From positions 1 through 41,904 of IMG/VR virus record IMGVR_UViG_3300046517_000498: a stretch of 41,904 nucleotides of DNA; one strand, written 5' to 3'. The position numbers and the translations under genes were made by a program. The notes under the pieces are model-generated. The model worked only from the letters and a program-made list of their open reading frames with translations, did no database searches and was not told where the DNA came from. Shown here one piece after another: positions 3,535-30,963 of this stretch (its first letter is position 1; every line of letters starts with the position of its first letter). The stretch comes from a virus.

Positions 3535-5146
3535 CAGATCCTCCCACCACCGCCGATGTTATCTTGCCGTTGGCGTCGATGCTGATCTTGTAGTTCTTGC
3601 CGCCCTGGCTCACCACTTGCCCATCCGTGTAGGTTTCGCCGTTCGGGGCCTTGGCCGTGCGTGGCTTTCCTGCGTCTGACGTGGCGGTGTTGGCCTTGCC
3701 AGGCTTCAGGTCCGCATAGCCTTGCATGACCGCCCGAGCGCCTTCGATGCTGCCGAGATACGTTTGCAGATCCTTGCCTTTCGGATCCAGTCGTTCCCGC
3801 ATCATGTTCACGGCGTCGCCCGAGGCTCGAGCGCCGAAGTGCGTCATCGCCACGCCAGACGAGAGCAAGTCGGCCTGGGTCACGAACTTGCCGATGAGGG
3901 TGCGCTGATCCGGCGTGAGTCCAGCGATGTCCGCCGGCGTCGATTCTTTAGAGGCCAAGTCCCTGAACCGGCCCGCGAAGGTGCCCATGAGGCCCTGCCG
4001 GTCAATCTCCTTGGCCATCGCCTCCACGGCATCGATCTGTGGCATCTGCGCTTGCGCGAACTCGACGCGCGCTTCGACCTGGGCCGTGAGCGGCCGAGTC
4101 ATATCGAATTTCATGGAGCGCATGAACGCTTCGACCTGATTCCGCATCCCGCCAGCCGCAGGTACGCCCATGATCGTGATGTTGCCATGCACGAGATCGT
4201 CGGCGTATTGCTTGACGGCCTCACTCGGTGCGCCGTCTGGCGTCAGTTGTCCGTTCGCCTTGAGCCGTTCAATCGCTTCCTGCTCGACGTTGTGCCGATG
4301 CGTTTCGGCCGCCACCGCTTCGGCGTCTTTCCGCTGCTGCGCCGCATTGGCCGCGTTCGACTTCTGTTCCGGCGTCAGCGCGAACTGATTCAGCACCTCG
4401 GGCGTGGCCCCAAGCAGTGGCTCGAACGTCTGCTGAAGCGCCTGCCGCGTCTGATAGTCCGGCACGAGCGCCAGTGCGGCCTTGAGCGTGTCGCCACGCT
4501 GGTCTATCGGTGTCTCGGCCAGCTCGCCCGCGAGGTTTGGCTGATACTCGCCCTTGAGGAACCCCTGCACGTACTTGTCGCGCCGGTCGAGCCGATCCTT
4601 CATCGACAGCGACAGGTTGCCCAACCGATCCACGATGCCGGAAATCTCTGACGGATCGGGATTCTGAGGCAACATCTGGCCGAGCGCCTGACGCACCTTC
4701 GGATCGGTGATGAGCCCGCCGAGCGCCGTGTATCCCGCCTGATAATGCTGCGGCGAGTCGCCCATCGTGCCGATGATCTTCGTCGCCATGTCGAGTTGGG
4801 CCGAGGACGCCTTGCCTTCCGCATCGACCGCGTCTGCGATGCCCTTCCGCTTCTTGGCATCCGCGTCGTAAAGCGTCTGACCGAGCGTGCCCATGCCAGC
4901 CTTGGTTAGACTGTCGCCCGCGCCGAGGAGATCGCCGTTCGAGTCCTGAAGCGCGGCGTTGATGGCCGCCGTGTCCTTCGCCTTCTGAATGAGCGCCTGC
5001 GTCTGCTGCTGGCGTTGTTCCGCGAGCGCCTGACGCTGTTCTTGCAGCCCCTTCAGGTTCTCCAACTGCGCCATCGTGGCGAGCGGATCAACCGGCTTGA
5101 ACTGCGGGATGTTGAGTTGGCCGACGATCCCAGGATCAATCGCCAC
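3527..5146 (-). CDS. Putative internal virion / DNA ejection protein (B)
   Basis: 539 residues beginning with GTG at 5146. Residues of about 20-60 form a Gln/Leu-rich coiled coil (LENLKGLQEQRQALAEQR), and most of the chain is predicted helical. It follows the DPGYQFARDQG protein and precedes the 542-residue protein, matching the P22 gp7-gp20-gp16 order. Those P22 proteins leave the virion with the DNA and build a conduit through the cell envelope. A role like gp20 is inferred from context only. The C-terminal 50 residues (APNGETYTDGQVVSQGGKNYKI) may be a separate small beta domain. Confidence 0.55.
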   Translation of the reverse strand: MAIDPGIVGQLNIPQFKPVDPLATMAQLENLKGLQEQRQALAEQRQQQTQALIQKAKDTAAINAALQDSNGDLLGAGDSLTKAGMGTLGQTLYDADAKKRKGIADAVDAEGKASSAQLDMATKIIGTMGDSPQHYQAGYTALGGLITDPKVRQALGQMLPQNPDPSEISGIVDRLGNLSLSMKDRLDRRDKYVQGFLKGEYQPNLAGELAETPIDQRGDTLKAALALVPDYQTRQALQQTFEPLLGATPEVLNQFALTPEQKSNAANAAQQRKDAEAVAAETHRHNVEQEAIERLKANGQLTPDGAPSEAVKQYADDLVHGNITIMGVPAAGGMRNQVEAFMRSMKFDMTRPLTAQVEARVEFAQAQMPQIDAVEAMAKEIDRQGLMGTFAGRFRDLASKESTPADIAGLTPDQRTLIGKFVTQADLLSSGVAMTHFGARASGDAVNMMRERLDPKGKDLQTYLGSIEGARAVMQGYADLKPGKANTATSDAGKPRTAKAPNGETYTDGQVVSQGGKNYKISIDANGKITSAVVGGSGG

Positions 5147-5148
5147 GG

Positions 5149-5979
5149 CTATGGATTCCCGCCCTGATAGGGCGTGACAGTAGTGTATGGGTCGGCGTTG
5201 AAAGGCTTTTGAGTCGGCGTTGCCTGAGGTCCGAATTGTTTGTACAGGGCAAAGTTCTGCGCCGCGTTCGACACGCCGCCGAGCGCCCCGGTAAAGGCGT
5301 TCGCCCCGCCAACCGTGCCGGCCGCCTGCGCGTTGGCCGCCTGCGTGCCGTAGTTGCCCTGCTGCTGCGCGGCGTTCGAGCCGGTGTTCACCAGCGAGCC
5401 GAGGTTGTTGAAGTTCGTCTGGAAGCCAGCGAGGTGCTGATTGAACAGTTGGTTCTCGCCCTGGTAGGCAGCGCCAGCGCCGTAGTTGGCCAAGTCCTTC
5501 ATTGTGCCGCTGCCGAGGAGCGTGCCCTTCGCGGCGGCTGACGACTGGATGGCGTTGAGGCCCTGATCGCGTGCGAACTGGTAGCCGGGGTCGTTGGCGA
5601 CCTGAGACGGGTCGAAGCTAAATCCGCCCTGACCGCCGTAGCCCGCGCCGCCCTGATCGCCGCCACCGTTGCCGCCGTAGTTGGCCGGATTCGTGACGTG
5701 CGACTGCCAGTAGGCGACGTTGTCTGGGGTCAGACCGCCGCCGTTGGCGATGATCTGGTTGATGTAGTAGTCGCGCGCTTCGCCGCTCTTGATCTTGGGG
5801 TCCGCGCCAGGCAGCGTGCCGAGGTAGTCGACGTACTGGCCGACCGCCGTGCGATCAGTCGGACTCACGCCCTGCGGAATCTGGTAGCCGCCGCTTTGAG
5901 CCGCCTGTTGCGGAGCCTGATACCCAGACTGCGGCTGCACCTGGGTGTTCGGGTCGGTTCCGTCGTCCATCGGCAACAT
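5149..5979 (-). CDS. DNA ejection-type virion protein (gp7-like)
   Basis: 276 residues. A Gln/Pro/Gly-rich N-terminus is followed by DPGYQFARDQGLNAIQSSAA and KGTLLGSGTMKDLANYG. This DPGYxFRxxQGxxAxxxSAAAxG signature is common in podovirus virion proteins annotated as DNA transfer or ejection proteins. ATG 5979 is preceded by GGAGGA and overlaps the upstream stop as TGATG. A glycine-rich linker lies near residues 98-118. Together with the next two genes it probably forms the set of proteins injected into the host. Confidence 0.65.
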   Translation of the reverse strand: MLPMDDGTDPNTQVQPQSGYQAPQQAAQSGGYQIPQGVSPTDRTAVGQYVDYLGTLPGADPKIKSGEARDYYINQIIANGGGLTPDNVAYWQSHVTNPANYGGNGGGDQGGAGYGGQGGFSFDPSQVANDPGYQFARDQGLNAIQSSAAAKGTLLGSGTMKDLANYGAGAAYQGENQLFNQHLAGFQTNFNNLGSLVNTGSNAAQQQGNYGTQAANAQAAGTVGGANAFTGALGGVSNAAQNFALYKQFGPQATPTQKPFNADPYTTVTPYQGGNP

Positions 5980-6380: not shown

Positions 6381-6763
6381 AAAATTGACTCCGATTCTAC
6401 TCTTGTTTTTCCCACCGGAAGACTGTAAAGGTCCGGCCAGCGTTCGGCACCCAACTTCTCAAGGATCCCGCGCACCAGGTCGCTTTCCGCGCCCGTGACG
6501 ACCGTCGTGATGCCGAGTTCGTCGGCCAAAGAGTTCATGCCCGCGAGGAGCCTCCGTGCGACCACCGTCTTGCCGCGATACGCCGGCGCGATCTCGACCC
6601 CCTCGGCGTGGAGCCAACTGATCAGACCCCAGCAGCCAACGATCTGGCCATCGTCTTCGACCACAATCGGCCAGACCGATCCCGCCGGCGCGTCCTTGAT
6701 GAGCGCGTAGAGCGCGAAGCCTTCAAGGCGCGGCCACTCGGCGTGGGGGAGCACTCGCGTCAT
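6371..6763 (-). CDS. GNAT-like N-acetyltransferase
   Basis: 130 residues with a GNAT-fold pattern. A beta strand pair (WPIVVEDDGQIVGCWGLISW) is followed by VEIAPAYRGKTVVARRLLAGM, which resembles the acetyl-CoA-binding motif A (RGxG/A then a helix), and by the C-terminal FxxLGAE-like segment (ILEKLGAERWPDLYSLPV). ATG 6763 shares one base with the stop of the 34-residue gene upstream. A longer frame from a TTG at 6877 is rejected because that region encodes the small gene in another frame. Acetyltransferase-like genes occur in phage tail regions and may modify virion or host proteins; the substrate is unknown. Confidence 0.65.
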   Translation of the reverse strand: MTRVLPHAEWPRLEGFALYALIKDAPAGSVWPIVVEDDGQIVGCWGLISWLHAEGVEIAPAYRGKTVVARRLLAGMNSLADELGITTVVTGAESDLVRGILEKLGAERWPDLYSLPVGKTRVESESILCQ

Positions 6764-6867
6764 CACTTGAGCGCCGTCCGAATCGCGTTGATGATGACCC
6801 ACCGCAATGCCACCAGAAACAGCACTCCGGCAATCGTCCAACGTGTCCAGTAAGCCGTTGGCGTCAT
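6763..6867 (-). CDS. 34-residue membrane microprotein
   Basis: A 34-residue ORF too short for usual gene callers. It starts with ATG 6867, overlapping the upstream stop as ATGA, and ends with TGA sharing one base with the acetyltransferase ATG. It therefore fills exactly the gap between two real genes. It encodes one hydrophobic segment (IAGVLFLVALRWVIINAI) flanked by Arg/Trp before and Arg/Lys after. This is a typical single-span membrane protein. The tight coupling at both ends is the main support. Function unknown. Confidence 0.65.
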   Translation of the reverse strand: MTPTAYWTRWTIAGVLFLVALRWVIINAIRTALK

Positions 6868-7643
6868 ATCGCCTCAATCACGTAGTAGATCTTCACCTTG
6901 AGCGTGTTCGAGGCATTCCCGCCCGTGAGATTCCCCGATCCGTTGTTGTCGATGTTCATCATCAGCGGCTTGTTGCCGAGTTGCCCAGTGCCGGCTTGAC
7001 TCACCTGCTGCACGTAACCCTGCGTCGTCGCGGATGCGCCCACGGCGGCCAGATTGGGCTGCCCGATCTCTTGCACCAGATCCGCCACGGTTGTCAGGAG
7101 CGCGGTCACATTCGTCAACGCTGGCGTCGTCGTGGAATCGTCCACGGGTCCGTAACTGACGTAATACGTGTCGAGCGTCTGGTGAAAGTCCACATAGGTG
7201 GCGTTGAGATTCGTGTAGGCGCCGACGACGTGCGTCTGATAGGTGACAGCGAGCGGCTTGATCCAGAACCCCGCGCCAGGCGTGGCCACGAGTTGGACGG
7301 GCGTCGTGGGCAGCGCCTTAACCTGAGCGTCTGTCAGCGTCGTCAGGGAGTGCAGGAGCACGACCGAGTTCGCCGCGACGGTGATGGCGCTTCCGCCCGC
7401 ACCGACAACGACCAGACCAGATGTCAGGCCGGTTCCAGTGACGCCCGTGCCAGCGACCGACGCCACGGCTACCCATGCGGCCGAGGTCGTGTCGTAGGCG
7501 AACATCTGTTGGAGCGTGTGATCCCAAAAATAGTAGCCGAGCGGACTGCCACTGGCCGGCGTCGGAGGCGTCGGCGTGAAGGCCAACCGCTGCGTGGTCG
7601 TGCCTTGGGCGACAAATGCGTTAAGCGTTGAGTCTGCGGACAT
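6864..7643 (-). CDS. Tail/fibre-associated structural protein
   Basis: 259 residues, Thr/Val/Ala/Gly-rich and largely beta-like. A short aromatic stretch near residues 35-60 (GYYFWDHTLQQMFAYDTTSAAWVAV) resembles modules found in phage fibre proteins that describe a text-like strand-turn repeat. The stop overlaps the next small gene (ATGA) and the start overlaps the previous gene (TAATG). It lies between the split tail-hub genes and the ejection proteins. Probably a virion protein; exact role unknown. Confidence 0.5.
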   Translation of the reverse strand: MSADSTLNAFVAQGTTTQRLAFTPTPPTPASGSPLGYYFWDHTLQQMFAYDTTSAAWVAVASVAGTGVTGTGLTSGLVVVGAGGSAITVAANSVVLLHSLTTLTDAQVKALPTTPVQLVATPGAGFWIKPLAVTYQTHVVGAYTNLNATYVDFHQTLDTYYVSYGPVDDSTTTPALTNVTALLTTVADLVQEIGQPNLAAVGASATTQGYVQQVSQAGTGQLGNKPLMMNIDNNGSGNLTGGNASNTLKVKIYYVIEAI

Positions 7644-8068
7644 TAGGCTGCAGGCACCAGGATGAGATGGCCGTCGCCATCGCTAACAAGGACCGGCGGT
7701 TCAGCGCCAGTCACCAAGGGAATCAATGAGCCGAATCCGGTCGAGGTAATGGTAATACCGTGGGGTCCGTTCGTCACGGTGATGCCAGTGCCAGCCGTGA
7801 GCGTGGCCGGCGTGACCGTGCCGTCCGACGTCGCCCCGATCATCACTTGGCCGTCAGTCAAAGCCACGGCGCGAATGTCTGTTCCGCCGTTACCGACTAG
7901 TGTGCGGTTCAGCGTCAGCACGCCGACCGCGTTCACATCCCCGGACGAGTTCGTGCGATCCGAGACGGAGTTGAGCGCGTCGTACCACGTCGGCGTGACC
8001 TTGCCGGTCTTCAGATCCGCAATCGGATGCTCGTAGATGCCGGTGTAGGACTTGGGTCGAGTCGCCAT
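7643..8068 (-). CDS. Fibre-like structural protein
   Basis: 141 residues. The central part (LTDGQVMIGATSDGTVTPATL, then TAGTGITVTNGPHGITI) closely matches a beta-strand module seen repeatedly in phage tail fibres. The N-terminus (YTGIYEHPIADLKTGKVTPTWYDAL) probably anchors it. Translational coupling is tight on both sides (TGATG at the start, TAATG at the end). It is likely a short fibre or tail appendage component. Confidence 0.55.
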   Translation of the reverse strand: MATRPKSYTGIYEHPIADLKTGKVTPTWYDALNSVSDRTNSSGDVNAVGVLTLNRTLVGNGGTDIRAVALTDGQVMIGATSDGTVTPATLTAGTGITVTNGPHGITITSTGFGSLIPLVTGAEPPVLVSDGDGHLILVPAA

Positions 8069-9333
8069 CAGTGCGCCGACTCCGTGATCCAGACCGAGCA
8101 GCCCGTCATGATCGGCAGAAACGTGTCCGACGTCACGATGCGAACGACCGGATAGCGGCCCTGACCGACGATGTTCACATACGCCCGAGTGAGATAGCGC
8201 CCTTCACGTCCAGCGTTCATCAGGCGCTCGTTGCTCCACGTCTTCCCGTGGTCCCAGCTCACCTGGAGCATGAACTTCGGTTCACCGAGCGGATCGTCCA
8301 CGATGCCCGTTCCGGGTTGGAACTGGACTTCGAGCCGAGAGATCGTCTGGCGCTCATTGCCGGTGCTGACCGGAATCGGCACGGTGCGCTCGCGGCGAAT
8401 CGGCATCGTCGCGGCTGTGCCGACGAAGACGTTCTGGTCTGGTGCTCCGCTCCATGCGAAGAATGGACACGAGAACGGCACTTCAGATGGAGACCCCGAA
8501 TCGGTCGGGATAGTGAAGGAGTCGAGCAGCGCCCCGCTCGCCACATCGAACTGCCAGAACTTGGTCGTCGCGCTCGTGATGTCGTTGAACGTTCTGGCCC
8601 AAAACACACTTGACGAGGCCAGATCGATAGCTAACCGCGTCGGACTCGCCTCGTGCGTGATGCCTGTGAGCACGTAGGACTTCAGCAGCGTCCCAGATTC
8701 ATCGTAGCGGCGCACGGTGAACACAGGGCCAGCTGTCTGCGCGATGATGATGAACTGGTTCGTGCCAGGCAACCGGAGCATATCTTGGCCCCAGTCCGTT
8801 CCGGCCACGCCGGCGATGAGCGTGCCGCCAGCCGTGTCGCTGCCCAGGTTCCACTTGCTAATGGCCTGAGCGCCGAGATTGTAAGTCGAATAGAAGAATG
8901 TCGATCCATCCTCAGACAGACACAGAATGAGTGGAGCACCGTTCGTAATGTGCCACGTGGTTCCACCCGTCACTCCGGTATCAGAAAACGACCGGACATC
9001 CGTATTGACACCATTCGGAACGCTGGCGTAGAACGTCGAGACGTAATCCGACGTCATGCCCTGCCGCACGCTCCACGCCGAACTCGGCGTGAACGGCACG
9101 GCCGTGCCTCGGAGCGACAGCGACGGGTTGTAGATCGGAATCGACGTGATGTGGGTCGTGATGCCCTTGTCGCCCACACAGAAGATGCCGTTGGATAGAA
9201 TCGCGCCGACTTCGCCAGTGCCGAGCGTGAGTCCTCCGGCGATGAACGCTCCATCAGTCGAGCTAATGGTCGCTCCGCCGTTGGTATCCGTCTCGTTCGG
9301 CACGATGATGACGCCGGGGCCGAAGGACGCCAT
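8068..9333 (-). CDS. Tail-hub C-terminal module with inserted N-terminal domain
   Basis: 421 residues in two parts. Residues 1-310 have strand-rich, propeller-like repeats (FTVRRYDESGTLLKSYVL; KFWQFDVASGALLDSF) that I do not assign to a family. Residues 311-421 (PIRRERTVPIP, MLQVSWDHGKTWSNERLM, GRYLTRA, VVRIVTSD) match the C-terminal domain of P22 gp10-like packaged-DNA stabilisation/tail-hub proteins. That domain is missing from the gene upstream, which ends where it should begin. The two genes overlap by one base (TAATG). The gp10 equivalent is therefore probably made of two chains. Confidence 0.7.
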   Translation of the reverse strand: MASFGPGVIIVPNETDTNGGATISSTDGAFIAGGLTLGTGEVGAILSNGIFCVGDKGITTHITSIPIYNPSLSLRGTAVPFTPSSAWSVRQGMTSDYVSTFYASVPNGVNTDVRSFSDTGVTGGTTWHITNGAPLILCLSEDGSTFFYSTYNLGAQAISKWNLGSDTAGGTLIAGVAGTDWGQDMLRLPGTNQFIIIAQTAGPVFTVRRYDESGTLLKSYVLTGITHEASPTRLAIDLASSSVFWARTFNDITSATTKFWQFDVASGALLDSFTIPTDSGSPSEVPFSCPFFAWSGAPDQNVFVGTAATMPIRRERTVPIPVSTGNERQTISRLEVQFQPGTGIVDDPLGEPKFMLQVSWDHGKTWSNERLMNAGREGRYLTRAYVNIVGQGRYPVVRIVTSDTFLPIMTGCSVWITESAH

Positions 9334-10472
9334 TATGGGTTCACGTCCGTCAGAATCACGTCCATCTCGTACTGGTCGAGCGACATTTCGTAAATCGCGC
9401 CGCTTTGCCGGTCCTGCACGAGGTGCTTGCCGAAGGCGTAGGCGTGCGCCACGCCGAGGTCAGGAACGTAGCGCATGTACTTCTGGTCGTACAGGCCGCG
9501 CTCGTGCCAGAGGTCGGTCGTGACGTCGTAGACCGGCGTCGTTTCCAGACCGGGCACGTAGAGGAGATAGAAGGCGTGGCCTTGTTGCGAGTAGGCCCAG
9601 GCTCGAGCGCCGGCGACCGAAGGCGCACGACGCAGAAGATTCGAGATCGACGGCGTGGATACCACTCTCCAGTCGTAGCCGTCCGCGCGGATGACTTCAA
9701 GTGACCCGTCATCGTTGGAGCCGACGCACATGAGGGCGTTGTCGATCGCCGCGAGCGAGTAGACGGCCGCCGTGCCCCAGCGTGGCAGCGTGCCTGGAAT
9801 CGGCGCGAGCGGGAAGTCTGCCGCGCCGATGTCGGCCCAGACTTCCGTATTCTTCGAGCCGACGAACCAGACCTTGCCGTTGATGGCCGCGCCGTTCTGG
9901 ATGTCGTCCACGGTGAGCGAGAGCTGCTGCGTGCCGCCCTGTAAGATGTTCCACAAGGTGCCGTCAAAGAGGTTCGACAGCGAGAACTGCGGCGAGTTCT
10001 GCCGGATGGCTCCGAAGTAGCCATCGAGGTAGAAGCACGACACGGCCGGAAATGGGAACTCCGGCTGGCTCGAGACGTCCGTGAAGGCCGAAGTGATGAG
10101 GTCAAGGATGTAGCCAGACCCACCCGAGACGGCCATCAGTTGATGGCCCTGCTCGTTGCCGTTCGAGGCCATGCTGCCAGGATTCGCGTCCACGTTCACG
10201 ACGCCACGCACCGTAAACGTCTGCTGCGGGAACACTTCACACAGGAGCGGACCCGACATCGCCCAGCAGCGTCCGTCCTGCGCGAAGATGCCACGCCCTG
10301 GCCCGCTGGGGAGATCGAGCCAGAGTTTGTAGCCGGGCGTGTTGATGAGTGAGGCGACCGAGCCCGTGCGCTGCGCGGCTTCGGGATACAGATTGATCGC
10401 CCGATACAACCCCTGCACGTTCGCATACGGCGGAAACGACCCGCCCACGAAGTTCGGAATCGGCGCGGCCAT
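9333..10472 (-). CDS. P22 gp10-like tail hub protein, N-terminal portion
   Basis: 379 residues from ATG 10472, which overlaps the connector gene stop as TAATG; an open frame continues upstream but is not used. Motifs fit gp10-like packaged-DNA stabilisation proteins: an early YRAINLYPE...TPGYKLW, then FSLSNLFDGTLWN, GKVWFVGSKNTEVW, and near the end VTTDLWHERGLYD and GKHLVQDRQSGAIYEMSLDQY. Such proteins extend the portal channel below the gp4-like connector. The chain stops soon after IYEMSLDQY, about 100 residues short of P22 gp10 (472 residues). The missing C-terminal module is on the next gene. Confidence 0.8.
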   Translation of the reverse strand: MAAPIPNFVGGSFPPYANVQGLYRAINLYPEAAQRTGSVASLINTPGYKLWLDLPSGPGRGIFAQDGRCWAMSGPLLCEVFPQQTFTVRGVVNVDANPGSMASNGNEQGHQLMAVSGGSGYILDLITSAFTDVSSQPEFPFPAVSCFYLDGYFGAIRQNSPQFSLSNLFDGTLWNILQGGTQQLSLTVDDIQNGAAINGKVWFVGSKNTEVWADIGAADFPLAPIPGTLPRWGTAAVYSLAAIDNALMCVGSNDDGSLEVIRADGYDWRVVSTPSISNLLRRAPSVAGARAWAYSQQGHAFYLLYVPGLETTPVYDVTTDLWHERGLYDQKYMRYVPDLGVAHAYAFGKHLVQDRQSGAIYEMSLDQYEMDVILTDVNP

Positions 10473-11233
10473 TACGGCTGGAACAGGCCCGACCGATAGT
10501 TGTAGGTCGTCTGGTTGAAGGACCGATTGACCGGCATGCCACTGTCGCGCGTGACGAGCCGCGGCGTGGCGTAGTTGTTCGCGAAGATGCGGTGCCTCGC
10601 TTCGAGCGCCTTCTTCATGAGCCGAGGATCCGGCGGCTTGCCGTAGATGCCCTGCAAGTCCTCCGCGAGCGTCAGCGTCATCGCGTCTTGGTAGCCTGGC
10701 GGCATCGAGAACGTCGAGTTCAGCGTCAGGTTCGCGAGAACAATTGGGGCTTCGATCTCGAAGCCATACGACACGCTCGGCACCGGCCACAAGTTCACGA
10801 CGCCATTCGGCCATGCCGGCGAGTAGTAGAGGTCTGTCGGAAACGTCGTGTTGATGCCGCGGATCGGATTGGCGAGCCACCACTGGTCGTCGCGGATATT
10901 CACCGGGACGCGCACAGTTGGGCTCACGTTGTTCAGGACGACGTTCGCGCCCAGGATGATGTTGGGCCGCTGCGTGATGGGGGCGCTGGTGATGACATCG
11001 ACCGCCCAATCCCCGCTCGGTCCAATCGTCGGACTGCCATTGCTGGGAATGAGGATGAAGTTCAGAAAGTCGACGTTGAAGACGGCTTCGCGCTCGGCGT
11101 TGAAGTTGTCGATGAGGCGGCCAAGCTTGCCGATGACGATCGCCGCGTCGTCCGCGCCAATCGTATCGACGCCACTGAGCGCCCCAATCTCAAGCAGCGC
11201 GTCCCGACAGAGCGTGCGTCCGGTAATCGCCAT
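10472..11233 (-). CDS. P22 gp4-like head-tail connector / tail accessory factor
   Basis: 253 residues. The start (MAITGRTLCRDALLEIGAL, then LGRLIDNFNAEREAVFNVDF), the central IGPSGDW segment, and the C-terminal PPGYQDAMTLTLAEDLQGIYG all follow the gp4-like tail accessory family. That protein binds the portal after DNA packaging and receives the tail hub. It is longer than P22 gp4 (166 residues) but typical of the wider family. It directly precedes the gp10-like gene with a one-base overlap, the same order as in P22. Confidence 0.75.
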   Translation of the reverse strand: MAITGRTLCRDALLEIGALSGVDTIGADDAAIVIGKLGRLIDNFNAEREAVFNVDFLNFILIPSNGSPTIGPSGDWAVDVITSAPITQRPNIILGANVVLNNVSPTVRVPVNIRDDQWWLANPIRGINTTFPTDLYYSPAWPNGVVNLWPVPSVSYGFEIEAPIVLANLTLNSTFSMPPGYQDAMTLTLAEDLQGIYGKPPDPRLMKKALEARHRIFANNYATPRLVTRDSGMPVNRSFNQTTYNYRSGLFQP

Positions 11234-11234
11234 G

Positions 11235-12401
11235 TTAGAGCCCCATGACCGCGATGTTCATGCACTGCGGGAACCCAGAGGTCGCCCCGCTCCAGATGAG
11301 CCGTGTCCGCGTTCCGGTGACAGTATACGCGCCTGATCCGGCCGTGAGGGTGTAGGCCGTGACATCCTCGGACCCGAGCGTCAGGAATGTCGACGCAGGC
11401 ACTTGGTTGTTGTATTCCGACGTGATCCAATCCGTTGATCGCAGGACGTTCGAGACTTTGACTTCGTCCAGCAACCCAGCATACAAGCCGAACACACCCA
11501 CATTCCCCGCGTCATTGCCAGCAGTGAGCGCAATGGATGAGGACCCCCCAAAGGCCCCGAGCGCCGTGCCGACCGCCGCCAAGGTGGCGTCCAGATACAA
11601 CGTCGGAACCTGCGTGCCGCTATTCCACGTGCCGACCAACTGGTGCCATTGGCCGTCGGCCACGCTGACGAAGTAATGCGCTTGAACACTGGCGCCGTTC
11701 ACGCCCCAAAAGAGGCCGTCGCCACCGAAGTGGGTCTGGGTGAGTTCAAACGCGAAGGTGCCGACGCCGTTGTTGATGCCGATGATGAAGCCATCCGCAT
11801 CGACGGAGACTTTGATCCAACAGGAGGCCGTGAACGACCCGGCAAAGTTCCAATCGGCACTCGCCCCGAAGCTGAGTTTGTTGGTGCCCGTGCCTGAAAA
11901 ACTGGCCGCGCCATCGGTGTTGCCGACCGACGGCGTGGGCCCGCTGATCGCCCCATCATGGGCATTGGCCGTTGAATCCTTCGCGGCGAGCGTCGTGCCA
12001 TTCGGCAGATGCCAGACGCCTTTGAAGGCGCTGTTCCAGGTGCCATTCACGTCGCCTTGGAACGTCGTGACCGAGGCATCGCCGTAGGCGAGATAGAACA
12101 CCGTATCGGCCGTGTGCGACAGCGTCGGAATCTTCACCCACGCGACGAGTGACCCCGTCGTGCCGTCGTAGGATTCGACTTCCCAACTGAGCGCCGTCGA
12201 GAGCACCGCATTGCTGAAGAAGGCGAGATCGGCCGGAACAGTCTGGCCATTGGAGGTCGTCGTGTTGTTAACGTGACCGCCACTGGAGACGAGCGCCAAG
12301 GTCGCATTCGTCACGCGCACGAGCACGGGGAAGTCCGTCGAGTTCGTGGACCCACATTGCGCGTGATCCACGGTCAGCGAACGTTTGTAGAGATACGCCA
12401 T
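11235..12401 (-). CDS. DUF2341/LamG lectin-like virion protein
   Basis: 388 residues from ATG 12401 (TAATG overlap with the gene upstream). Residues of about 20-110 resemble DUF2341 (TDFPVLVRV...ADLAFF...WEVESYDGTTGSLVAWVKIP). Residues of about 130-330 form a LamG/concanavalin-A-like lectin domain (GVWHLPNG, FTASCWIKV, WHQLVGTWN, LLDEVKVSN). The last 40 residues (TLTAGSGAYTVTGTR, then FPQCMNIAVMGL) closely match the C-terminus of the gene just upstream. A sugar-binding virion decoration or host adhesion protein is likely. Confidence 0.75.
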   Translation of the reverse strand: MAYLYKRSLTVDHAQCGSTNSTDFPVLVRVTNATLALVSSGGHVNNTTTSNGQTVPADLAFFSNAVLSTALSWEVESYDGTTGSLVAWVKIPTLSHTADTVFYLAYGDASVTTFQGDVNGTWNSAFKGVWHLPNGTTLAAKDSTANAHDGAISGPTPSVGNTDGAASFSGTGTNKLSFGASADWNFAGSFTASCWIKVSVDADGFIIGINNGVGTFAFELTQTHFGGDGLFWGVNGASVQAHYFVSVADGQWHQLVGTWNSGTQVPTLYLDATLAAVGTALGAFGGSSSIALTAGNDAGNVGVFGLYAGLLDEVKVSNVLRSTDWITSEYNNQVPASTFLTLGSEDVTAYTLTAGSGAYTVTGTRTRLIWSGATSGFPQCMNIAVMGL

Positions 12402-13273
12402 TACAGACCCATCACCGCGATGTTCAAGCACTGGGGGAAGTTACCGGTCACGGGCGGAGCGCCGCTCCAGCGAAGTGTGGCCCGTGTGCCAGTGATGAGA
12501 TACGACCCCGAGAGCGCCGTGATCGTGTAGTGCGTATGGATCGCCGCTGTCAGCGTGGCTGCGGTGCCGGTGACGAGATACGATCCGCTATCCGCGGTGA
12601 TCTTGCGCGTGACCGGGAAGGTCACCGCCGTGCCGGTCACGGCGTAAGACCCCGCGTCAGCCGTCAGCGTGTAGGCCGTGCCCCCGCCGCCGCCCTTGAA
12701 CACCGCGTTGCAGATGCCAGACGCCGCAGTTGAAAAACCCGACCAGATCGGGTTTTGCGCCGTGGCCGAGGCTTGGATGAGATACGCCAGTCCTGATCCG
12801 AAGTTCGAGCCGCCCGCAACCGCCACTTGGTCACTAATGGTGTAGCCGCTGCCAATCGTCAGTCCATTAGGGCCTCCGCCAATCCCGCTAATCATCAGGT
12901 TGGCCGCAGTCGAGGGCGTCAGTGACCCGCCACTGCCTCCACTCCCCGTATCAGCCACGTTCGACGCGCCCGTCTCCACGTCGAAGGCGGAGAACGAATC
13001 GTGCGCCTCAATACAGGCCGACGACAGATTCGCTCCGCCCGAATCCTGAAAGGTGTGGAGGGTGCCGACAATAGGATTGGACACATACCAGATCGCCTGC
13101 GAGCTACCGAATTGCCCCGTCTGCGGTGTGAGTTGCGTCCACGTATTGCTCTTGCTGTCCTGCATGCCCGTGCCGGTGGTGAGCACCGCCACGAGCAACG
13201 TCGCGCCGCTGGTGTTGACCGCAGCAGAGACGTTCCCGGCCCCCGCGAACGAGGTGTGGGCAATCAGGGCCAT
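12401..13273 (-). CDS. Beta-repeat virion protein with shared C-terminal tag
   Basis: 290 residues. Residues 1-195 form a strand-rich domain with DSKSNTWTQLTP and AIWYVSNPIVGTLHTF, of a type common in phage and metagenome proteins of unknown role. A glycine stretch (194-198) leads to three tandem repeats of about 25 residues built on xxTAxxGSYxVTGTxxT (201-220, 224-241, 249-267). The chain ends with RWSGAPPVTGNFPQCLNIAVMGL. The neighbour at 11235-12401 ends in the same way, so the C-terminal unit is probably a docking or assembly tag. Confidence 0.65.
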   Translation of the reverse strand: MALIAHTSFAGAGNVSAAVNTSGATLLVAVLTTGTGMQDSKSNTWTQLTPQTGQFGSSQAIWYVSNPIVGTLHTFQDSGGANLSSACIEAHDSFSAFDVETGASNVADTGSGGSGGSLTPSTAANLMISGIGGGPNGLTIGSGYTISDQVAVAGGSNFGSGLAYLIQASATAQNPIWSGFSTAASGICNAVFKGGGGGTAYTLTADAGSYAVTGTAVTFPVTRKITADSGSYLVTGTAATLTAAIHTHYTITALSGSYLITGTRATLRWSGAPPVTGNFPQCLNIAVMGL

Positions 13274-15519: not shown

Positions 15520-16779
15520 CTAGGCGCAGAGCAGGCGGACAGCGCAGTTGTCGCTGTACAAGTTGCCGAAGCCCATGCAGACGTCGAAGCGGTTGATCAT
15601 CTTGCGCTGCTGGGGATCGAACATCCGCACGAAGGCGACGTAGATGCCCGTGTCCGGATCCTTCTGCTGCGACGACATTTCGCACGCCTTCGGAATCTCG
15701 AGCTTGACGCCGACGATGCCGAACGCATCCTTGGCGAGCGCGAGCGCCTGCTTGCCTGCCTTGCCGTTGGGCGAGGACGTGCCGGGGAACAAGGTCAGCG
15801 CCGCGTTCGCGAGCGGCAGCGCCGAGACGTTCTGGTAGGGCGAGCCAGGGCCGTAGATCGTCGGCGAGATGTTGATCGTCGCCGTCGAGGCCGTGGCCGT
15901 CACCGACTGGTCATTGCCGTTGGCGTCGGTCGGGATGACGAACGTCTTCAGCGTGGCCGAGGTCGTGCGGCGCCGCGTCATCGGGTTGACCGCGTAGACG
16001 GCGTCGATCGAGAACACATCGCCCGTCTTGAACGTGTCGCCCGAGGTGCAGTTGACGACGAGCGTGGACGCCCCGTCGACCGACGTCGTGTTGACCGTCA
16101 CCGCATTCTGCCAGGTGCCCGCCGTGTGGTCGTAGAGCGACATCGACTCGTAGAAGTCGAAGCCCGCGTACTCCCCGAGGGCGCCCGTCTTGTAGGTCCG
16201 CGCCACATCCGACGCCGGATTGAAGAAGCCCTGCTGCGCCGGCACGAGGGACGTGTTGACCTGCGGCGGAATCGCGAACACCCGTTCGCCGCCAGGGGGA
16301 CACGCCAGTTCGAGCATCCGCTGACGCGCCTGATTGATCGTGCTCAGACTGGTCGGGTCGGTGCCCAGCACGCCGACGATGTTGTTCGAGTTCTTGTAGG
16401 CCCACGACGCCGCTCGCGAGTCGATCTCCTGAGCAATCTGCGCCATCGCCGGTTCGATGTAGATGTCGCGGAAGCGGTCACGGCCGCGCTCCACTTCCAA
16501 CGCCGCCTGCACCGAGTCCCATTCGAAGTCGTACCCGAAGACCTGGTTGCAGTTGACGGTCGTGTAGAGGCGGTTGATCGTGTTCGGGTTGTACCCGAGC
16601 CCGTTGCGGATGAAGCCGCGGTTCGGCAGCGGCACGCGCACGGATTCGCCAATGGCGAACTCGCGCTCGAACTCCTGCGTCCACGACGTGTTGAAGTAGC
16701 CTGCGATGGTGAGCTTGTTGACGAGAAGGCGCAGGGCCTCCATCGACAACCAGTCGACAAACTGAAATACCTGCGGCAT
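15520..16779 (-). CDS. Major capsid protein, P22 coat-like
   Basis: 419 residues, close to P22 coat (430). The N-terminus (VFQFVDWLSMEALRLLVNKL, then FEREFAIGESVRVPLPNRG) and the helix carrying FRDIYIEPAMAQIAQEIDSRAA match the P22 coat family, which uses the HK97 fold with an extra inserted domain. It lies immediately after the scaffold gene and two genes after portal, as in P22. It forms the icosahedral head shell. The strong synteny supports the call. Confidence 0.85.
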   Translation of the reverse strand: MPQVFQFVDWLSMEALRLLVNKLTIAGYFNTSWTQEFEREFAIGESVRVPLPNRGFIRNGLGYNPNTINRLYTTVNCNQVFGYDFEWDSVQAALEVERGRDRFRDIYIEPAMAQIAQEIDSRAASWAYKNSNNIVGVLGTDPTSLSTINQARQRMLELACPPGGERVFAIPPQVNTSLVPAQQGFFNPASDVARTYKTGALGEYAGFDFYESMSLYDHTAGTWQNAVTVNTTSVDGASTLVVNCTSGDTFKTGDVFSIDAVYAVNPMTRRRTTSATLKTFVIPTDANGNDQSVTATASTATINISPTIYGPGSPYQNVSALPLANAALTLFPGTSSPNGKAGKQALALAKDAFGIVGVKLEIPKACEMSSQQKDPDTGIYVAFVRMFDPQQRKMINRFDVCMGFGNLYSDNCAVRLLCA

Positions 16780-16809: not shown

Positions 16810-17835
16810 TTACCGAGTGCCTCGGCGCGCGAGGGCCTTACGGTTCTGTTCGTCCATGTACCGGCGCACATCCCCGTCAGAGACGGCCGCGAGCGACGCA
16901 TCGGCGGGAGCGGCATTGCGCCGTCCGAGCGAGGTCGTGGGGGCCGGCGCCGACGAGATCCCCTTCGTGGGGGTCGGTGGCGTGGACGTCGAGGGCGAGA
17001 CGCGGGCTTCGAGACGCGCCATTTCACGAATCACTGCTCCAGCGTCAGGCAGTGCCGACAACCGATCGAACTCCTTCGGATGATCCGCGAGGTGTTGGAG
17101 CATCTCCGCTCCACGCTCGGAATCCTGAATCTCGCGCGCCACGAAGTCGAGCGGCCCTGAGCCTTGCCGGATGACCGGATTGGCGTCGATGAACGCTTGC
17201 GGCAGTTTGGCCCGGATCTCCGGGTCGCTTTCTTCCGCCTTCGTGTAATGCCCGAGATACTTCTGGCGTCCTGTTTCCAGGGTCGCCGTCCGCGACTGGT
17301 TCGCCTGATACTCCAGTTGGTCGTAGCGGCTTTGATACCGCGTGAACTGGCCCAAGGTCGCGTTCGGGTAGGCCGTGAAGAACTCGGCCTCATCCATTGG
17401 CGGCTTGGTGACATCAGGGCGAGTCAGGAGTTCGGCCGGCGGTCGTCCCTCAGTGGCCGGCGGTGAATCGGCCTTCTTGTCACCTGCACTCGAGGGCGTG
17501 ACCGGCGCGGTGCGACCCAGTTCTTCCCGCAGTTGGGCACGGAGCTTCAGTTTGTCTTGAAGATCCTTGATCTCCGTGTCCAGTTCCGCGTTCCGAGTGG
17601 CCGCGTTCCCACGTTTCTTGCTCGACGGCGCGGGTTCCGAGTCCGCTGGGGTCTTCGCCGCGATTTCGGCGGCCGGAGCGTCCGGCTCGGAGGGGGACGA
17701 ATCCTCTTTGGGCGTCCGTTCGGCAGGCGGAGCCTTGTCAGGCAGTTCGCCGGTCATTTTCCAATGGTCACGCGCCTGGCTATCGAGGCTGGCGACCGCT
17801 TCCGACAAGAGAGCTGGAGACGAGTCAGCGTTCAT
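16810..17835 (-). CDS. Scaffolding protein, P22 gp8-like
   Basis: 341 residues between portal and coat, the scaffold position. The N-terminal 150 residues are Pro/Ala/Ser/Glu-rich and probably disordered, with one coiled coil (NAELDTEIKDLQDKLKLRAQL). A helical middle and a short basic helix at the end (RRYMDEQNRKALARRGTR) follow. P22 scaffold also binds coat through a basic C-terminal helix-turn-helix. It would direct procapsid assembly and then leave. TATACT (17854-17849) lies just upstream of ATG 17835, but no matching -35 box is present. Confidence 0.75.
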   Translation of the reverse strand: MNADSSPALLSEAVASLDSQARDHWKMTGELPDKAPPAERTPKEDSSPSEPDAPAAEIAAKTPADSEPAPSSKKRGNAATRNAELDTEIKDLQDKLKLRAQLREELGRTAPVTPSSAGDKKADSPPATEGRPPAELLTRPDVTKPPMDEAEFFTAYPNATLGQFTRYQSRYDQLEYQANQSRTATLETGRQKYLGHYTKAEESDPEIRAKLPQAFIDANPVIRQGSGPLDFVAREIQDSERGAEMLQHLADHPKEFDRLSALPDAGAVIREMARLEARVSPSTSTPPTPTKGISSAPAPTTSLGRRNAAPADASLAAVSDGDVRRYMDEQNRKALARRGTR

Positions 17836-17864: not shown

Positions 17865-20147
17865 TCAAGCGCCCGTGCCGTTCACGCTCGGTTCGGCCGG
17901 CGGCGGGGTGAGCGCGGCCGTCTTTTCCAGGATCGCGTGCTCGTGGGCGTGGTCAAGCGCCTTGCCTAGAATCTCGTGCGAGTGCTTGTCCTGCTGGAGC
18001 GCCGACTTGTTGATGTGCTCGCGGAGCGCCTTGGCCAGGTGCAACTGCTTTTCGATGCCCTGCTCGAGCGAATCGACGTAGGACCGGAAGTTCTCGGCAT
18101 CGACCTTGACTTGCGCGTTCGACATCGAGGCCGCAGCCGTGATCATCGTGCGACGAGTCGCCGCATCCTGCTCGAGTTCGGTCTGCTGCGTCTCGATCTG
18201 ACCCTTGATCTGCGCGATCGACGCATCGACGGCACCCTTGGCCTGAATCTTTGCCGTTTCGGTCTGGAGTTGCGTCTTCAGCGCCTGATTCTCGCTCTGG
18301 AGCTGCTGAATCATGCCCTGCACTTGCGGCGGGAGCGCCCCAGTGTCCGGCGGCGAGATGATCTCGGCCATTTCGTCGCCAATCGGGCCGAGGTTGCGGA
18401 GCTTGATCGTCCGAGACAGGATCTTCGCCGCCGCCGGCTGGCCGATGACGCCGACGAGCGACTGAATGTTCTCGACCAGGTCAGACGCGAACTCATCGGC
18501 CGCCACGCGCTCGGACTGGTAACTTGGCCCGGTCGAGAGCGTCACGTCGTGGTCGGTGTCTTCCACGGGAACAGACGTCGCGTCAGGCGTCGGCACGTCA
18601 TTGATGCGTTGCTGCATGACCTGGCCGTTGACCTTGCGCACGGCGACCGTGCGCGGCGTGTCGTAGAAGTGCGGAATCAGTTCTTCGAGCAAGACACCCG
18701 TGCGCGTGATGGCGGCTTCGTAGTGATCCACGAAGTGATACGTGCCGTGCTGCGTGGAATCGCGAATCTTGTCGAGCGCGACCCCTGACTTCTCGTTGTT
18801 CCGTTGCGCTTGGGTCGGGAGCGCCATCGAGCCCATCGCGGCCTGAATCGCACGCCGTGCGGATTCGGCGCCCATTTCGAGCGCCTGAATCGGAGGCTCA
18901 TAGGGCTGACGCACAGGGAACTCTGGCGGCGTGGCCGAGCCGTCTGACACGGCGTTCACCTGGATGACGGCGATCGGCTGCGAGAGAGACGCCTGCAAGT
19001 TGTCGAGTTCGTCCGGATCGAGCGAGCCGCGGCGAATAAAGTACGGGAACTTCGGCGTCATGCCGACCAGTTCCGCTTCGCAGGTCCGGTAGTAGCAGTA
19101 GAGCATGTAGGGGTCGCGTGCGAGCCGCACGAGACTCAGGATCTTCCGCTTCGGGCCGCCGCCTTCATCGACGTAGAGGATCTTGCCAAAGCAGCCGATG
19201 AGGGGAATGGACGAGCCGGGCCAGTCGGTTTCTTCCAGAATCTCAAGGCCGTTGGTCAGATACTTCTTGACCTTCGGCGTCTCGACGACGCGCGACTTGG
19301 CGCCCTTGGGCGCTTTGCCTTCGTGCATCGTGATCGTGCCGTCCTCGGCCGTCTCGGCCCAGACGGTCGTCTTCTCGTGCTCGATCGTCCAGTACTCTGC
19401 CAGCTGAATCGACTCGGGCTTGAACCAGCCCGGATACTGCTTCACGAGTTCGGGATAGGCGTCCCGAATCTCGGCGTCCGGAAAGCGGCGCTGGTAGTCC
19501 TTCACCGGCCACCGCTCGTAGACGAACGCCCACTTGATGTCCGACATGTCCGGGCGCTGGAAGTCTGGATCCGGCAGCACCAGGTCGGGATTGGGAATCG
19601 GGTCGATCATTAACTGCTGATCAAGGAGACTCGGACTCAGTTGGCCGGTCGTCGCATCGGGCGTCACGCGATTGGTGACGTACTTGGCCGTGATGCGCCA
19701 GTAGCCGTAGCTCCGCTGGACGGCGTTCTCGAAGCCGGCCGTGTAGGCGTCCTGCGCTTTCGACTGGTACTCGATCTGCCGAATCAGATCCTGTCGAAAC
19801 TGCGCGGTCTGGTCGTTGGCGCCGTCGCCGAGAGGCGTAACCTTGATGGCTCGCTCGTGCTCGCGGACGTCATTAACCAGTTGATTGACGTACTGGCCCA
19901 CCTCGTCCAATGTGAGGGCGGGGCGGCCGGCGTCAATCCGCTGACGCTTGTCTTTCGGATCCCACGGGTCGCCGGCGACGACCTTGATGTCTTCCTTGCC
20001 TTCTTCGCGGACTTCCCGCCATTCGTCTTGGGCATACGTGAACCGCTTCCGCATCTCCGCGAGAATCGGATCGGACTCATAGTCCTTCGCGGCGATCACA
20101 TTCGCGTTGGTGTTATCCACGCTAGTAGGCCGCGCCTGGCGTGCCAC
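17865..20147 (-). CDS. Portal protein, P22 gp1-like
   Basis: 760 residues (P22 portal has 725). The N-terminus (RFTYAQDEWREVREEGKEDIKVVAGDPWD, RPALTLDEVGQYVNQLVNDVREH) is characteristic of the P22-type portal family. A long helical C-terminus from about residue 600 (LQSENQALKTQLQ, IKGQIETQQTELEQDAATRR) probably forms the barrel seen in P22. The portal is the dodecameric DNA gate at one capsid vertex. The start is uncertain: GTG 20147 overlaps the upstream gene by 26 bases, and GTG 20120 (751 residues) would begin just after its stop. Confidence 0.85.
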   Translation of the reverse strand: MARQARPTSVDNTNANVIAAKDYESDPILAEMRKRFTYAQDEWREVREEGKEDIKVVAGDPWDPKDKRQRIDAGRPALTLDEVGQYVNQLVNDVREHERAIKVTPLGDGANDQTAQFRQDLIRQIEYQSKAQDAYTAGFENAVQRSYGYWRITAKYVTNRVTPDATTGQLSPSLLDQQLMIDPIPNPDLVLPDPDFQRPDMSDIKWAFVYERWPVKDYQRRFPDAEIRDAYPELVKQYPGWFKPESIQLAEYWTIEHEKTTVWAETAEDGTITMHEGKAPKGAKSRVVETPKVKKYLTNGLEILEETDWPGSSIPLIGCFGKILYVDEGGGPKRKILSLVRLARDPYMLYCYYRTCEAELVGMTPKFPYFIRRGSLDPDELDNLQASLSQPIAVIQVNAVSDGSATPPEFPVRQPYEPPIQALEMGAESARRAIQAAMGSMALPTQAQRNNEKSGVALDKIRDSTQHGTYHFVDHYEAAITRTGVLLEELIPHFYDTPRTVAVRKVNGQVMQQRINDVPTPDATSVPVEDTDHDVTLSTGPSYQSERVAADEFASDLVENIQSLVGVIGQPAAAKILSRTIKLRNLGPIGDEMAEIISPPDTGALPPQVQGMIQQLQSENQALKTQLQTETAKIQAKGAVDASIAQIKGQIETQQTELEQDAATRRTMITAAASMSNAQVKVDAENFRSYVDSLEQGIEKQLHLAKALREHINKSALQQDKHSHEILGKALDHAHEHAILEKTAALTPPPAEPSVNGTGA

Positions 20148-21420: not shown

Positions 21421-22911
21421 CTACGTCCCCATCCACGTGCCGATGCGCCGGACCATCGACGGGGCCTTGATGGTGGAGGTCGCACGCACCGGGCTCGCGA
21501 AGGTCAGGGCCAGGGCGTCGGCATCATCCGGAGAATCAAGTCCCCGGTTCCGCATCGACCGCTTATCCTCGAGCCACACCCGCTGCTGCTGGTCGCTCCG
21601 CACGCCCGGACCCACCAGGTCGGATTCGAGTTCCGCACTCCCGTCAATCGCGCCGGCCGCCAACCACTCCTTCATCTTCTGCCACATGTAGTCCCGCATG
21701 AACCGACATTGGGCATCGGGCGAATCGGCGCCGAAGTTCACTTCCTGCACGTTCCGGTGCCCTAGCATCCGCAACCGCTGGCCAATGGGGCCGGCAATGC
21801 CGGCGCTGTCCAGGAAAAGCGTGTGGACCTTCCGGCCCTCGTAGAGCGTCGTTAGGACCTCGGCCAGCCGCGTCGTGAGGACCGCCGGATCGCGCGTGAA
21901 CTCGCCCTTCACCCGAATCGGCGGAATCGTCCGCGCATCATTCCCGCGCCGAAACCGAATCACATTGTCGTCCCCGCCGCCCCACGCCAAGTCGCAGCCG
22001 ACGACCAGCGGCTCGTCCGGCATGACGTAGACCTTCCGCGCCTGCGCCTGCAGCACCCGCTCCTGATCAATGAACTGCGCGTCAGAGGCCCGTGGCGGCA
22101 ACCCCCGCACACGCACCCGGAAGAAGTCCGAGTCCTCCCCGTACTGCGCCGCCCACTCCGCAATCGTCTCCTTGTTCGTGAACCGCGACGTCCGCGAATC
22201 CACCACCACCGACTCCCATTTGTTCCGTTCGTTCCCGAAGACCGCCCGATGAAACTGCCCCGTCAACCGCGTCGGGTTCCCGCAGAGGAAAATCATCGGC
22301 TCCCCGTCCGTCAACCCGCCCTCCGCCACCGTGTGAATCTGATCCGGCACCGCCGAATCCTCATCGAAGATGTAAAACGACGTCGAGTCCCGCGCATGCT
22401 GACCCGCGAACGACTCGCTGTTCTCCTCCCGGCACGTCTGCGGCGTCACAAACCACGACTCCTTGTGCCCCTTCTCATACATCCGCGCCGTGTTGATCTC
22501 AAACCGATGCGCGGTGAGGCACAACTTCGTCCACCGCGTAATCGCCGGCCACGTCTTCGTCTCGAGCTGAATCGACGTGTTCGCCGTCACCACGCCCTGC
22601 GCGTGCGGACGGGTCGACATAATCCAATCGACCAGCCAGGCGACCAGCACGCTCTTGCCCACGCCGTGACCCGACGACACCGCCATCCGAATCGGCGCCA
22701 CCGGATCCTGCCCGTTGAACGCATTCCGCCGCACCCGCAGCCCCAGCTTCGTCAGAAACTCGACCTGCCACGCATCAGGGCCAGCCTCGAGCGACAGACT
22801 CCCGCCGCTCTCCCCCCACGGATACGCCCCACGCACAAACGCCAGCGGATCGTAGTACCACTCCACGAGCAGCTCGTCTAACCGACTCTCCTGCTCGCTT
22901 GCCGCTGCCAT
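21421..22911 (-). CDS. Terminase large subunit
   Basis: 496 residues. The ATPase half has Walker A SGHGVGKS (80-87), Walker B ending in DED (183-185) and coupling motif CGNPT (210-214). The nuclease half has the RNase H-like acidic positions: GCDLAWGGGDD (D307), LFLDSAG, and DDADALALTF near the C-terminus. The protein drives DNA into the procapsid and cuts it. The start ATG 22911 shares a base with the upstream stop (TAATG). Length and motif order are normal for the family. Confidence 0.93.
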   Translation of the reverse strand: MAAASEQESRLDELLVEWYYDPLAFVRGAYPWGESGGSLSLEAGPDAWQVEFLTKLGLRVRRNAFNGQDPVAPIRMAVSSGHGVGKSVLVAWLVDWIMSTRPHAQGVVTANTSIQLETKTWPAITRWTKLCLTAHRFEINTARMYEKGHKESWFVTPQTCREENSESFAGQHARDSTSFYIFDEDSAVPDQIHTVAEGGLTDGEPMIFLCGNPTRLTGQFHRAVFGNERNKWESVVVDSRTSRFTNKETIAEWAAQYGEDSDFFRVRVRGLPPRASDAQFIDQERVLQAQARKVYVMPDEPLVVGCDLAWGGGDDNVIRFRRGNDARTIPPIRVKGEFTRDPAVLTTRLAEVLTTLYEGRKVHTLFLDSAGIAGPIGQRLRMLGHRNVQEVNFGADSPDAQCRFMRDYMWQKMKEWLAAGAIDGSAELESDLVGPGVRSDQQQRVWLEDKRSMRNRGLDSPDDADALALTFASPVRATSTIKAPSMVRRIGTWMGT

Positions 22912-30727: not shown

Positions 30728-30963
30728 GCGATCGCGCCGACTTGGTCTGGGCCGCGGCCTTCGCGCTCGAGTTCGGCAGCGCCTACACGCGCTGGCGCAG
30801 CATCGAACGCGACAGGGTCTACGGCGCGATGAGTGTCTCGCAGCAGGCGCGGCCCGATCTGTCGGCCTTCGCTGATGCTGACCGTGCGGCGCTGCGGGAA
30901 GCGTCCCGCGATGCGCGCGATATTGCTGATGCGGCCGTTCGAGCGTTGCAGGAGGCCAAGTGA
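30724..30963 (+). CDS. Hypothetical helical protein
   Basis: 79 residues, Ala/Arg/Asp-rich helices (ADRAALREASRDARDIADAAVRALQEAK). It overlaps the previous gene (ATGA) and the exonuclease gene (GTGA), so it is translated with the recombination protein. No family recognised. Confidence 0.55.
   Translation: MSDRADLVWAAAFALEFGSAYTRWRSIERDRVYGAMSVSQQARPDLSAFADADRAALREASRDARDIADAAVRALQEAK

Follow-up and report, generated by a model that had tools for sequence, protein, structure and literature searches.

In a 41.9-kb virus record (IMG/VR IMGVR_UViG_3300046517_000498; 41,904 nucleotides, analyzed at full length and referred to here as the window), two adjacent genes share between them the parts of a P22 gp10-like tail hub, a type of protein that closes the phage head and gates the genome. 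Gene A encodes the part of the hub that we term hub-N, while gene B encodes the C-terminal module, hub-C, behind a predicted beta-propeller (Table 1). By sequence, a gp10-type hub has here been divided into two chains, each translated from its own gene, at the point where the propeller gives way to the C-terminal module. We think it fairly probable that the module of gene B completes the platform in trans and that the front domain of the same chain is displayed on the outside.

Gene A matched phrog_578 (head closure Hc3, P22 gp10-like, 486 columns) over columns 17-362 with an E-value of 9.7e-58. It has no C-terminal module, the last ~110 residues of a gp10-like hub being absent, and the end of the match at column 362 of 486 agrees with the preliminary description of the window, which had called the protein short of a full hub at its C-terminus. 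That description placed the end of the chain at IYEMSLDQY; the actual end is 11 residues later (...IYEMSLDQYEMDVILTDVNP), a correction that leaves the split unaffected. Among the solved hubs, phmmer matched gene A to 9vyg_M (E 1.7e-15) and 7eeq_1 (E 1.1e-6), and a family profile that includes gene A (A4) matched the greater part of the P22 gp10 chain (8tvr_S, E 1.4e-16) and of the Sf6 chain (7sg7_T, E 1.1e-14). The genome position is also that expected of a phrog_578 hub, since gene A lies in a P22-like structural module beside an adaptor-like gene, which it follows as its counterparts do in unsplit relatives. The adaptor-like product also gave a weak match to phrog_637, head-tail adaptor (E 0.031).

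The missing module was recovered where it had first been placed, in residues 311-421 of gene B. When both proteins were aligned to the gp10-like family they matched phrog_578 in complementary columns, and hub-C alone did so with an E-value of 1.7e-12; it contains an Asp-box-like SWDHGKTW. Comparison by hhalign of hub-C from the split phages with the C-modules of unsplit relatives gave an E-value of 7.6e-22 over 109 columns, and the C-modules of the unsplit relatives matched residues 343-438 of 7eeq_1 (E 1.3e-15). The lengths agree as had been calculated: 379 + 111 = 490 residues, against 472 for P22 gp10 (chain 8tvr_S) and 461-491 for annotated unsplit relatives. The likeness to the hubs of P22 (gp10), Sf6 (gp8) and cyanophages Pam1 and Pan3 (PDB 8tvr, 8eap, 7sg7, 7eeq, 9vyg) lies in the alignment of the two halves together to phrog_578, whereas the solved hubs are single chains of 442-472 residues and the window has two chains and an extra propeller of ~300 residues. 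Both chains are under purifying selection, with pN/pS of 0.35-0.42 in the closest pairs (0.37 for gene A and its L014 counterpart) and dS near saturation.

Table 1. Features of the window and its relatives relevant to the hub, with the make-up of the second chain at each split locus.
Locus	Feature	Coordinates	Strand	Match or remark
Window	DNA ejection protein	5149-5979
Window	Tail-fiber-like protein, downstream neighbor of gene B	7643..8068	minus	phrog_31660 tail fiber protein, E 4.1e-8
Window	Gene B, 421-aa second chain: hub-C behind propeller and linker	8068..9333	minus
Window	Gene B residues 311-421, hub-C (hub C-terminal module)	8071..8403	minus	phrog_578 columns 377-470
Window	Gene B residues 300-310, flexible linker (predicted)	8404..8436	minus	sole stretch with pLDDT < 50
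Window	Gene B residues 1-299, predicted beta-propeller domain, undescribed family	8437..9333	minus	AlphaFold2 pLDDT mostly 80-95
Window	Junction TAATG, gene A stop / gene B start, overlap of one base	9331..9335	minus
Window	Gene A, 379 aa, hub-N (N-terminal strands + propeller part of P22 gp10-like hub)	9333..10472	minus
Window	Adaptor-like protein (P22 gp4 position), upstream neighbor of gene A	10472..11233	minus	phrog_12985, E 1.4e-18
Window	Carriers of FPQCMNIAVMGL-type tail	11235-12431 and 12401-13273
Window	Major head protein	15520-16779
Window	Scaffold	16810-17835
Window	Portal	17865-20147
Window	Terminase	21421-22911
L002	Carrier of FPQCMNIAVMGL-type tail	4208-5545
L010	Carrier of FPQCMNIAVMGL-type tail	4766-5530
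Window, L002, L015	Second chain			propeller + hub-C
L010, L011, L017, L119	Second chain			LamG-like + propeller + hub-C
L116	Second chain			part of LamG-segment HMM + propeller + hub-C
L014	Second chain			proline-rich repeats + hub-C, 3.4 kb from hub-N

Several other features of these genomes were noted. In L014, as in the window, gene B is followed by a gene whose product has a similar N-terminus (YEHPI) to that of the tail-fiber-like protein. Upstream of the hub, otherwise different surface-like proteins end in a common C-terminal tail such as FPQCMNIAVMGL, which is possibly a common virion anchor; the first carrier in the window has LamG and DUF2341. Elsewhere in the window, a single 486-aa ORF (30960-32420) joins a 5'-3' exonuclease (PF02739 and PF01367) to a RecT domain (PF03837) and is a putative fused exonuclease-annealase.

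The one-base overlap of the two genes, already recorded in the preliminary description, was found at the TAATG junction. Both hub halves were seen in split form in nine phages, window included (L002, L010, L011, L014, L015/L016, L017, L116 and L119), and since the same kind of split occurs in these eight other phages, an assembly or sequencing error was ruled out. Junctions and frames vary among the relatives, from overlaps of 1 or 4 bases through abutting genes to a gap. L002, the first relative found, has the same two genes with the 4-base overlap; in L010 the genes share a reading frame and only one stop separates them; in L011 a gap of 132 bases divides them and an in-frame stop directly precedes the gene B start; and in L014 the hub halves are separated by several further genes (9140-12533). 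The first four hub-N chains compared all end at the same alignment column. The L018 contig ends after hub-N, and in it a small HNH-like ORF (4330-4575; phrog_740, E 0.0057) starts on the hub-N stop codon (ATGA), exactly at the split point, which may be a lead on how the hub gene was broken.

These junctions also bear on whether the split could be only apparent, with a frameshift or stop readthrough joining gene A and gene B into one long hub. In the window, the reading frame of gene B extends open into gene A for ~126 bases ahead of the gene B start, and the shared frame of L010 would likewise suit such recoding. However, the spacing and in-frame stop of L011 and the 3.4 kb between the halves in L014 refute it as a shared mechanism, and frames and junction types differ from one relative to the next. 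We therefore regard recoding as extremely improbable.

To place the split among related hubs, we collected relatives by alignment scans with hub-N, hub-C and the propeller and then ran hub-N and hub-C HMMs on every ORF; the result is a sample taken via conserved peptides and not a census. One ORF holds both hub-N and hub-C at 97 loci, where 1-40 residues (most often 5) separate the matches of the two HMMs; cultured Rhodoferax, Vibrio, Xanthomonas and Acetobacter phages are among them. The search via hub-C gave 80 loci, of which 78 were unsplit and the other two were cut by the contig end. Neither gene B nor the hub-N alignment retrieved a relative from genome contigs, and gene A retrieved none from plasmids. 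Among the relatives the unsplit form is the rule and the split hub rare. The preliminary description had pictured a one-chain hub that became two chains with a new domain inserted, and that part of the picture holds: the unsplit form prevails, the split recurs in nine phages and the added domain is a predicted propeller. The C-module aligns to phrog_578, and the hub-N chains of split relatives are not complete by themselves. No description of a split gp10-like hub was found in the literature searched, whose coverage excludes most subscription journals.

In a hub-N tree the split rows fall in one well-supported group of 16 that also includes six unsplit rows, and a single origin of the split for the ten rows of the main group was not rejected (AU p 0.475). 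A split of a different kind was found in L025, where chain A reaches phrog_578 column 399 and columns 402-471 are carried by a 154-aa protein after a 351-aa gene; L024 has the same split but is cut by the contig end. Here the split point is inside hub-C, elsewhere than in the main group. Because their sister L030 is unsplit and a branch with 100/99 support parts them from the main group, L024 and L025 represent a second, separate split event. At the same place, L008 carries about 40 inserted residues within a single chain. The sequences show that the hub was split at least twice, at two cut points.

Residues 1-310 of gene B matched no family in the profile search. An AlphaFold2 model of gene B, built on a 32-row alignment of propeller rows and hub-C rows, had a pLDDT of 86.2 and a pTM of 0.69, with one low stretch at residues 300-310 between the domains. 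In the model a flexible linker connects a beta-propeller to an all-beta module, both folds being predicted with good confidence. The N-terminal domain is modeled, at a pLDDT of about 90, as a circular array of four-stranded blades, and VIA-align aligned 260 of its ~300 residues to YWTD and TolB propellers at an rmsd of about 3.5 Å (Z 20.9 for LRP6 YWTD and 20.5 for TolB), so that the propeller-like domain suspected in front of the C-module is now predicted with high confidence. YWTD and TolB propellers are six-bladed, and the same is probably true of the gene B propeller. While YWTD (LRP6), TolB and Kelch propellers resemble this domain in fold (Z about 19-21), there was no sequence family match to them and no function is implied, as the propeller fold by itself indicates none. 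Family searches with the propeller found no carbohydrate-binding or receptor-binding family. Matches of gene B by phmmer to SAKe proteins in the PDB, which we take to be designed Kelch-type propellers, fell on one short stretch repeated in those chains and were disregarded. Hubs are absent from the VIA-align list for gene B because the propeller fills the list, and this is no evidence against hub-C.

A different view makes gene B an independent virion protein (an adhesin or decoration) that has borrowed a gp10 C-module as its anchor on the adaptor ring, with gene A a shortened hub that works despite lacking its own platform. In the prediction hub-C folds alone, with pLDDT block means of about 75-93, and because it folds well by itself the model is no proof that hub-C needs gene A. 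In Foldseek the best matches of chain B alone were complete gp10 hubs, in which a propeller likewise precedes the module (9vyg_M, E 6e-10, with an rmsd near 20 Å over the whole chain), as might be expected of an independent protein or a hub-like subunit of its own, and in L014 gene B lies far from hub-N behind other genes. However, every split contig with both halves has exactly one hub-N and one hub-C and no second hub-C, though the 97 unsplit relatives keep hub-C in the hub chain. The split also coincides with a domain border, and the unreplaced loss of the adaptor-contacting part of an essential protein is unlikely. On balance we consider an independent gene B protein unlikely, although it deserves serious attention.

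Homologues of the gene B propeller were found in L002, L010, L011, L015, L017 and L115-L123; those in L015, L010, L011 and L017 were detected by leave-out HMMs with E-values of 1e-5 to 1e-22 among 11,554 ORFs. In 50,697 phage records the propeller had no match, no cultured phage being found to carry the family, and the whole second chains of the relatives matched there only via hub-C. The propeller occurs without hub parts in L115, L117, L118, L120, L121/L122 and L123. In tail regions of long-tailed phages it is located downstream of a tape-measure gene in L122 and two genes before a phrog_376 tail protein in L118, and a further long-tailed case is L123, a 102-kb contig in which it forms the N-terminus of a 1270-aa protein (6626-10438). 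Short- and long-tailed phages therefore share the family. This distribution bears on the possibility that the domain is a duplicated and diverged hub propeller, gene B being a second hub paralogue and gene A a truncated copy. Gene B does follow gp10 in placing a propeller before the C-module, and gp10 hubs head its Foldseek list. Against this, hhalign found no profile relation between the gene B propeller and the hub's own propeller (probability 1.5%), long-tailed phages have the family with no hub attached, and unrelated modules replace the propeller in relatives. We consider a duplication improbable.

The front part of the second chain varies between the split loci (Table 1). The LamG-like domain before the propeller was seen in L010, where it falls below the curated cut-off, and in L011; in L119 the region separating the propeller from hub-C gave a weak Ig-like match. 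L014 shares 70% identity with the window in hub-N and 63% in hub-C but has proline-rich repeats instead of the propeller. L002 is near L010 in the hub (hub-N 71%, hub-C 57%) and not in the propeller (29%), whereas it is near the window in the propeller (70%) and less so in hub-N (44%) and hub-C (42%); because identities disagree between parts in this way, exchange of the front part has gone on independently of the hub. The propellers of the window and L002 are more alike than their hub parts, which would be unusual for a fast-changing receptor binder. A recent transfer of this propeller was unsupported, as its dS of 1.58 is not below that of the hub parts (1.21 and 1.88), all values being near saturation. 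The repeats of L014 (12533-13732) are proline- and tryptophan-rich, of the type WPVPRGPEYPxxLRTWTQ, and the unsplit L012 encodes repeats of a similar kind in a gene of their own (3-1772).

Returning to a hub completed in trans, we propose that the gene A chain would supply the N-terminal strands and a channel-lining propeller, and the gene B chain the C-terminal module behind a second, unrelated propeller. The two chains likely assemble together on the adaptor ring, where the C-module of gene B would join the N-terminal strands of gene A and so rebuild the platform. The single-chain nozzle protein gp12 of T7 offers a precedent: its C-terminal platform binds the adaptor and incorporates three strands contributed by the chain's first 45 residues, and a fiber dock on its outer surface joins the platform to the propeller (PMC6702177). 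If the platform is built as in T7 gp12, it always joined two distant segments of the chain, and a break would be tolerated because gene A keeps the N-terminal segment and gene B brings the rest. The order of propeller, outward domain and C-terminal platform on the adaptor would be common to both systems, but the fiber dock of T7 is a jelly roll and no sequence match was found; among the matches listed, by sequence or by Foldseek, no row was named T7 gp12, and the resemblance rests on the domain order reported in PMC6702177. By this analogy, the split point would correspond to the position of the fiber dock if gp10-type hubs are built like T7 gp12, and the display site would be the adaptor-nozzle level where fibers dock and not the portal itself. 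The muzzle protein gp44 of crAss001 also has a hub-type propeller with large inserted domains, but these lie within one chain and at other positions, namely inside blade 3 and between that blade and blade 2 (PMC10172136).

On its flexible linker, the front domain of gene B likely stands exposed on the outside where T7 has its fiber dock, and its most probable task would be host-surface contact or fiber docking; that it contacts the host we judge about evenly balanced. The LamG, Ig-like and repeat modules are in keeping with a surface role, as is the occurrence of the propeller near tail genes, and receptor binding, fiber docking and mere decoration are alike compatible with such a role. Because it occupies the free N-terminus of its own gene, the front domain can be replaced with no change to the hub, as has happened among the relatives. 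An essential hub plug has in this way probably been turned into a socket for swapping surface parts. More tentatively, and with slightly more doubt than confidence, we suggest that the hub of this podophage clade pairs a fixed part, the channel, with a plug-in part that snaps into it by the C-terminal module and bears freely exchanged N-terminal domains (propeller, LamG, Ig-like, proline-rich repeats) as a host-recognition or fiber-docking cassette, and that another lineage arrived at this separately with another cut point.

The protein is not categorically new but a split, domain-carrying variant of a known hub. It merits attention as an essential and so far single-chain plug that has been split at least twice and whose second chain is exchangeable. 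The two natural split points show where the hub protein tolerates a break, and the split is in line with a platform put together from the two ends of the chain. It further accounts for the way annotation would treat the pair, with gene A passing for a truncated hub and gene B for a protein of no known kind. The analysis adds a propeller family found in both short- and long-tailed phages, the split group itself consisting of uncultured short-tailed phages, and suggests a route besides tail fibers and tailspikes by which short-tailed phages may vary their host-facing parts.
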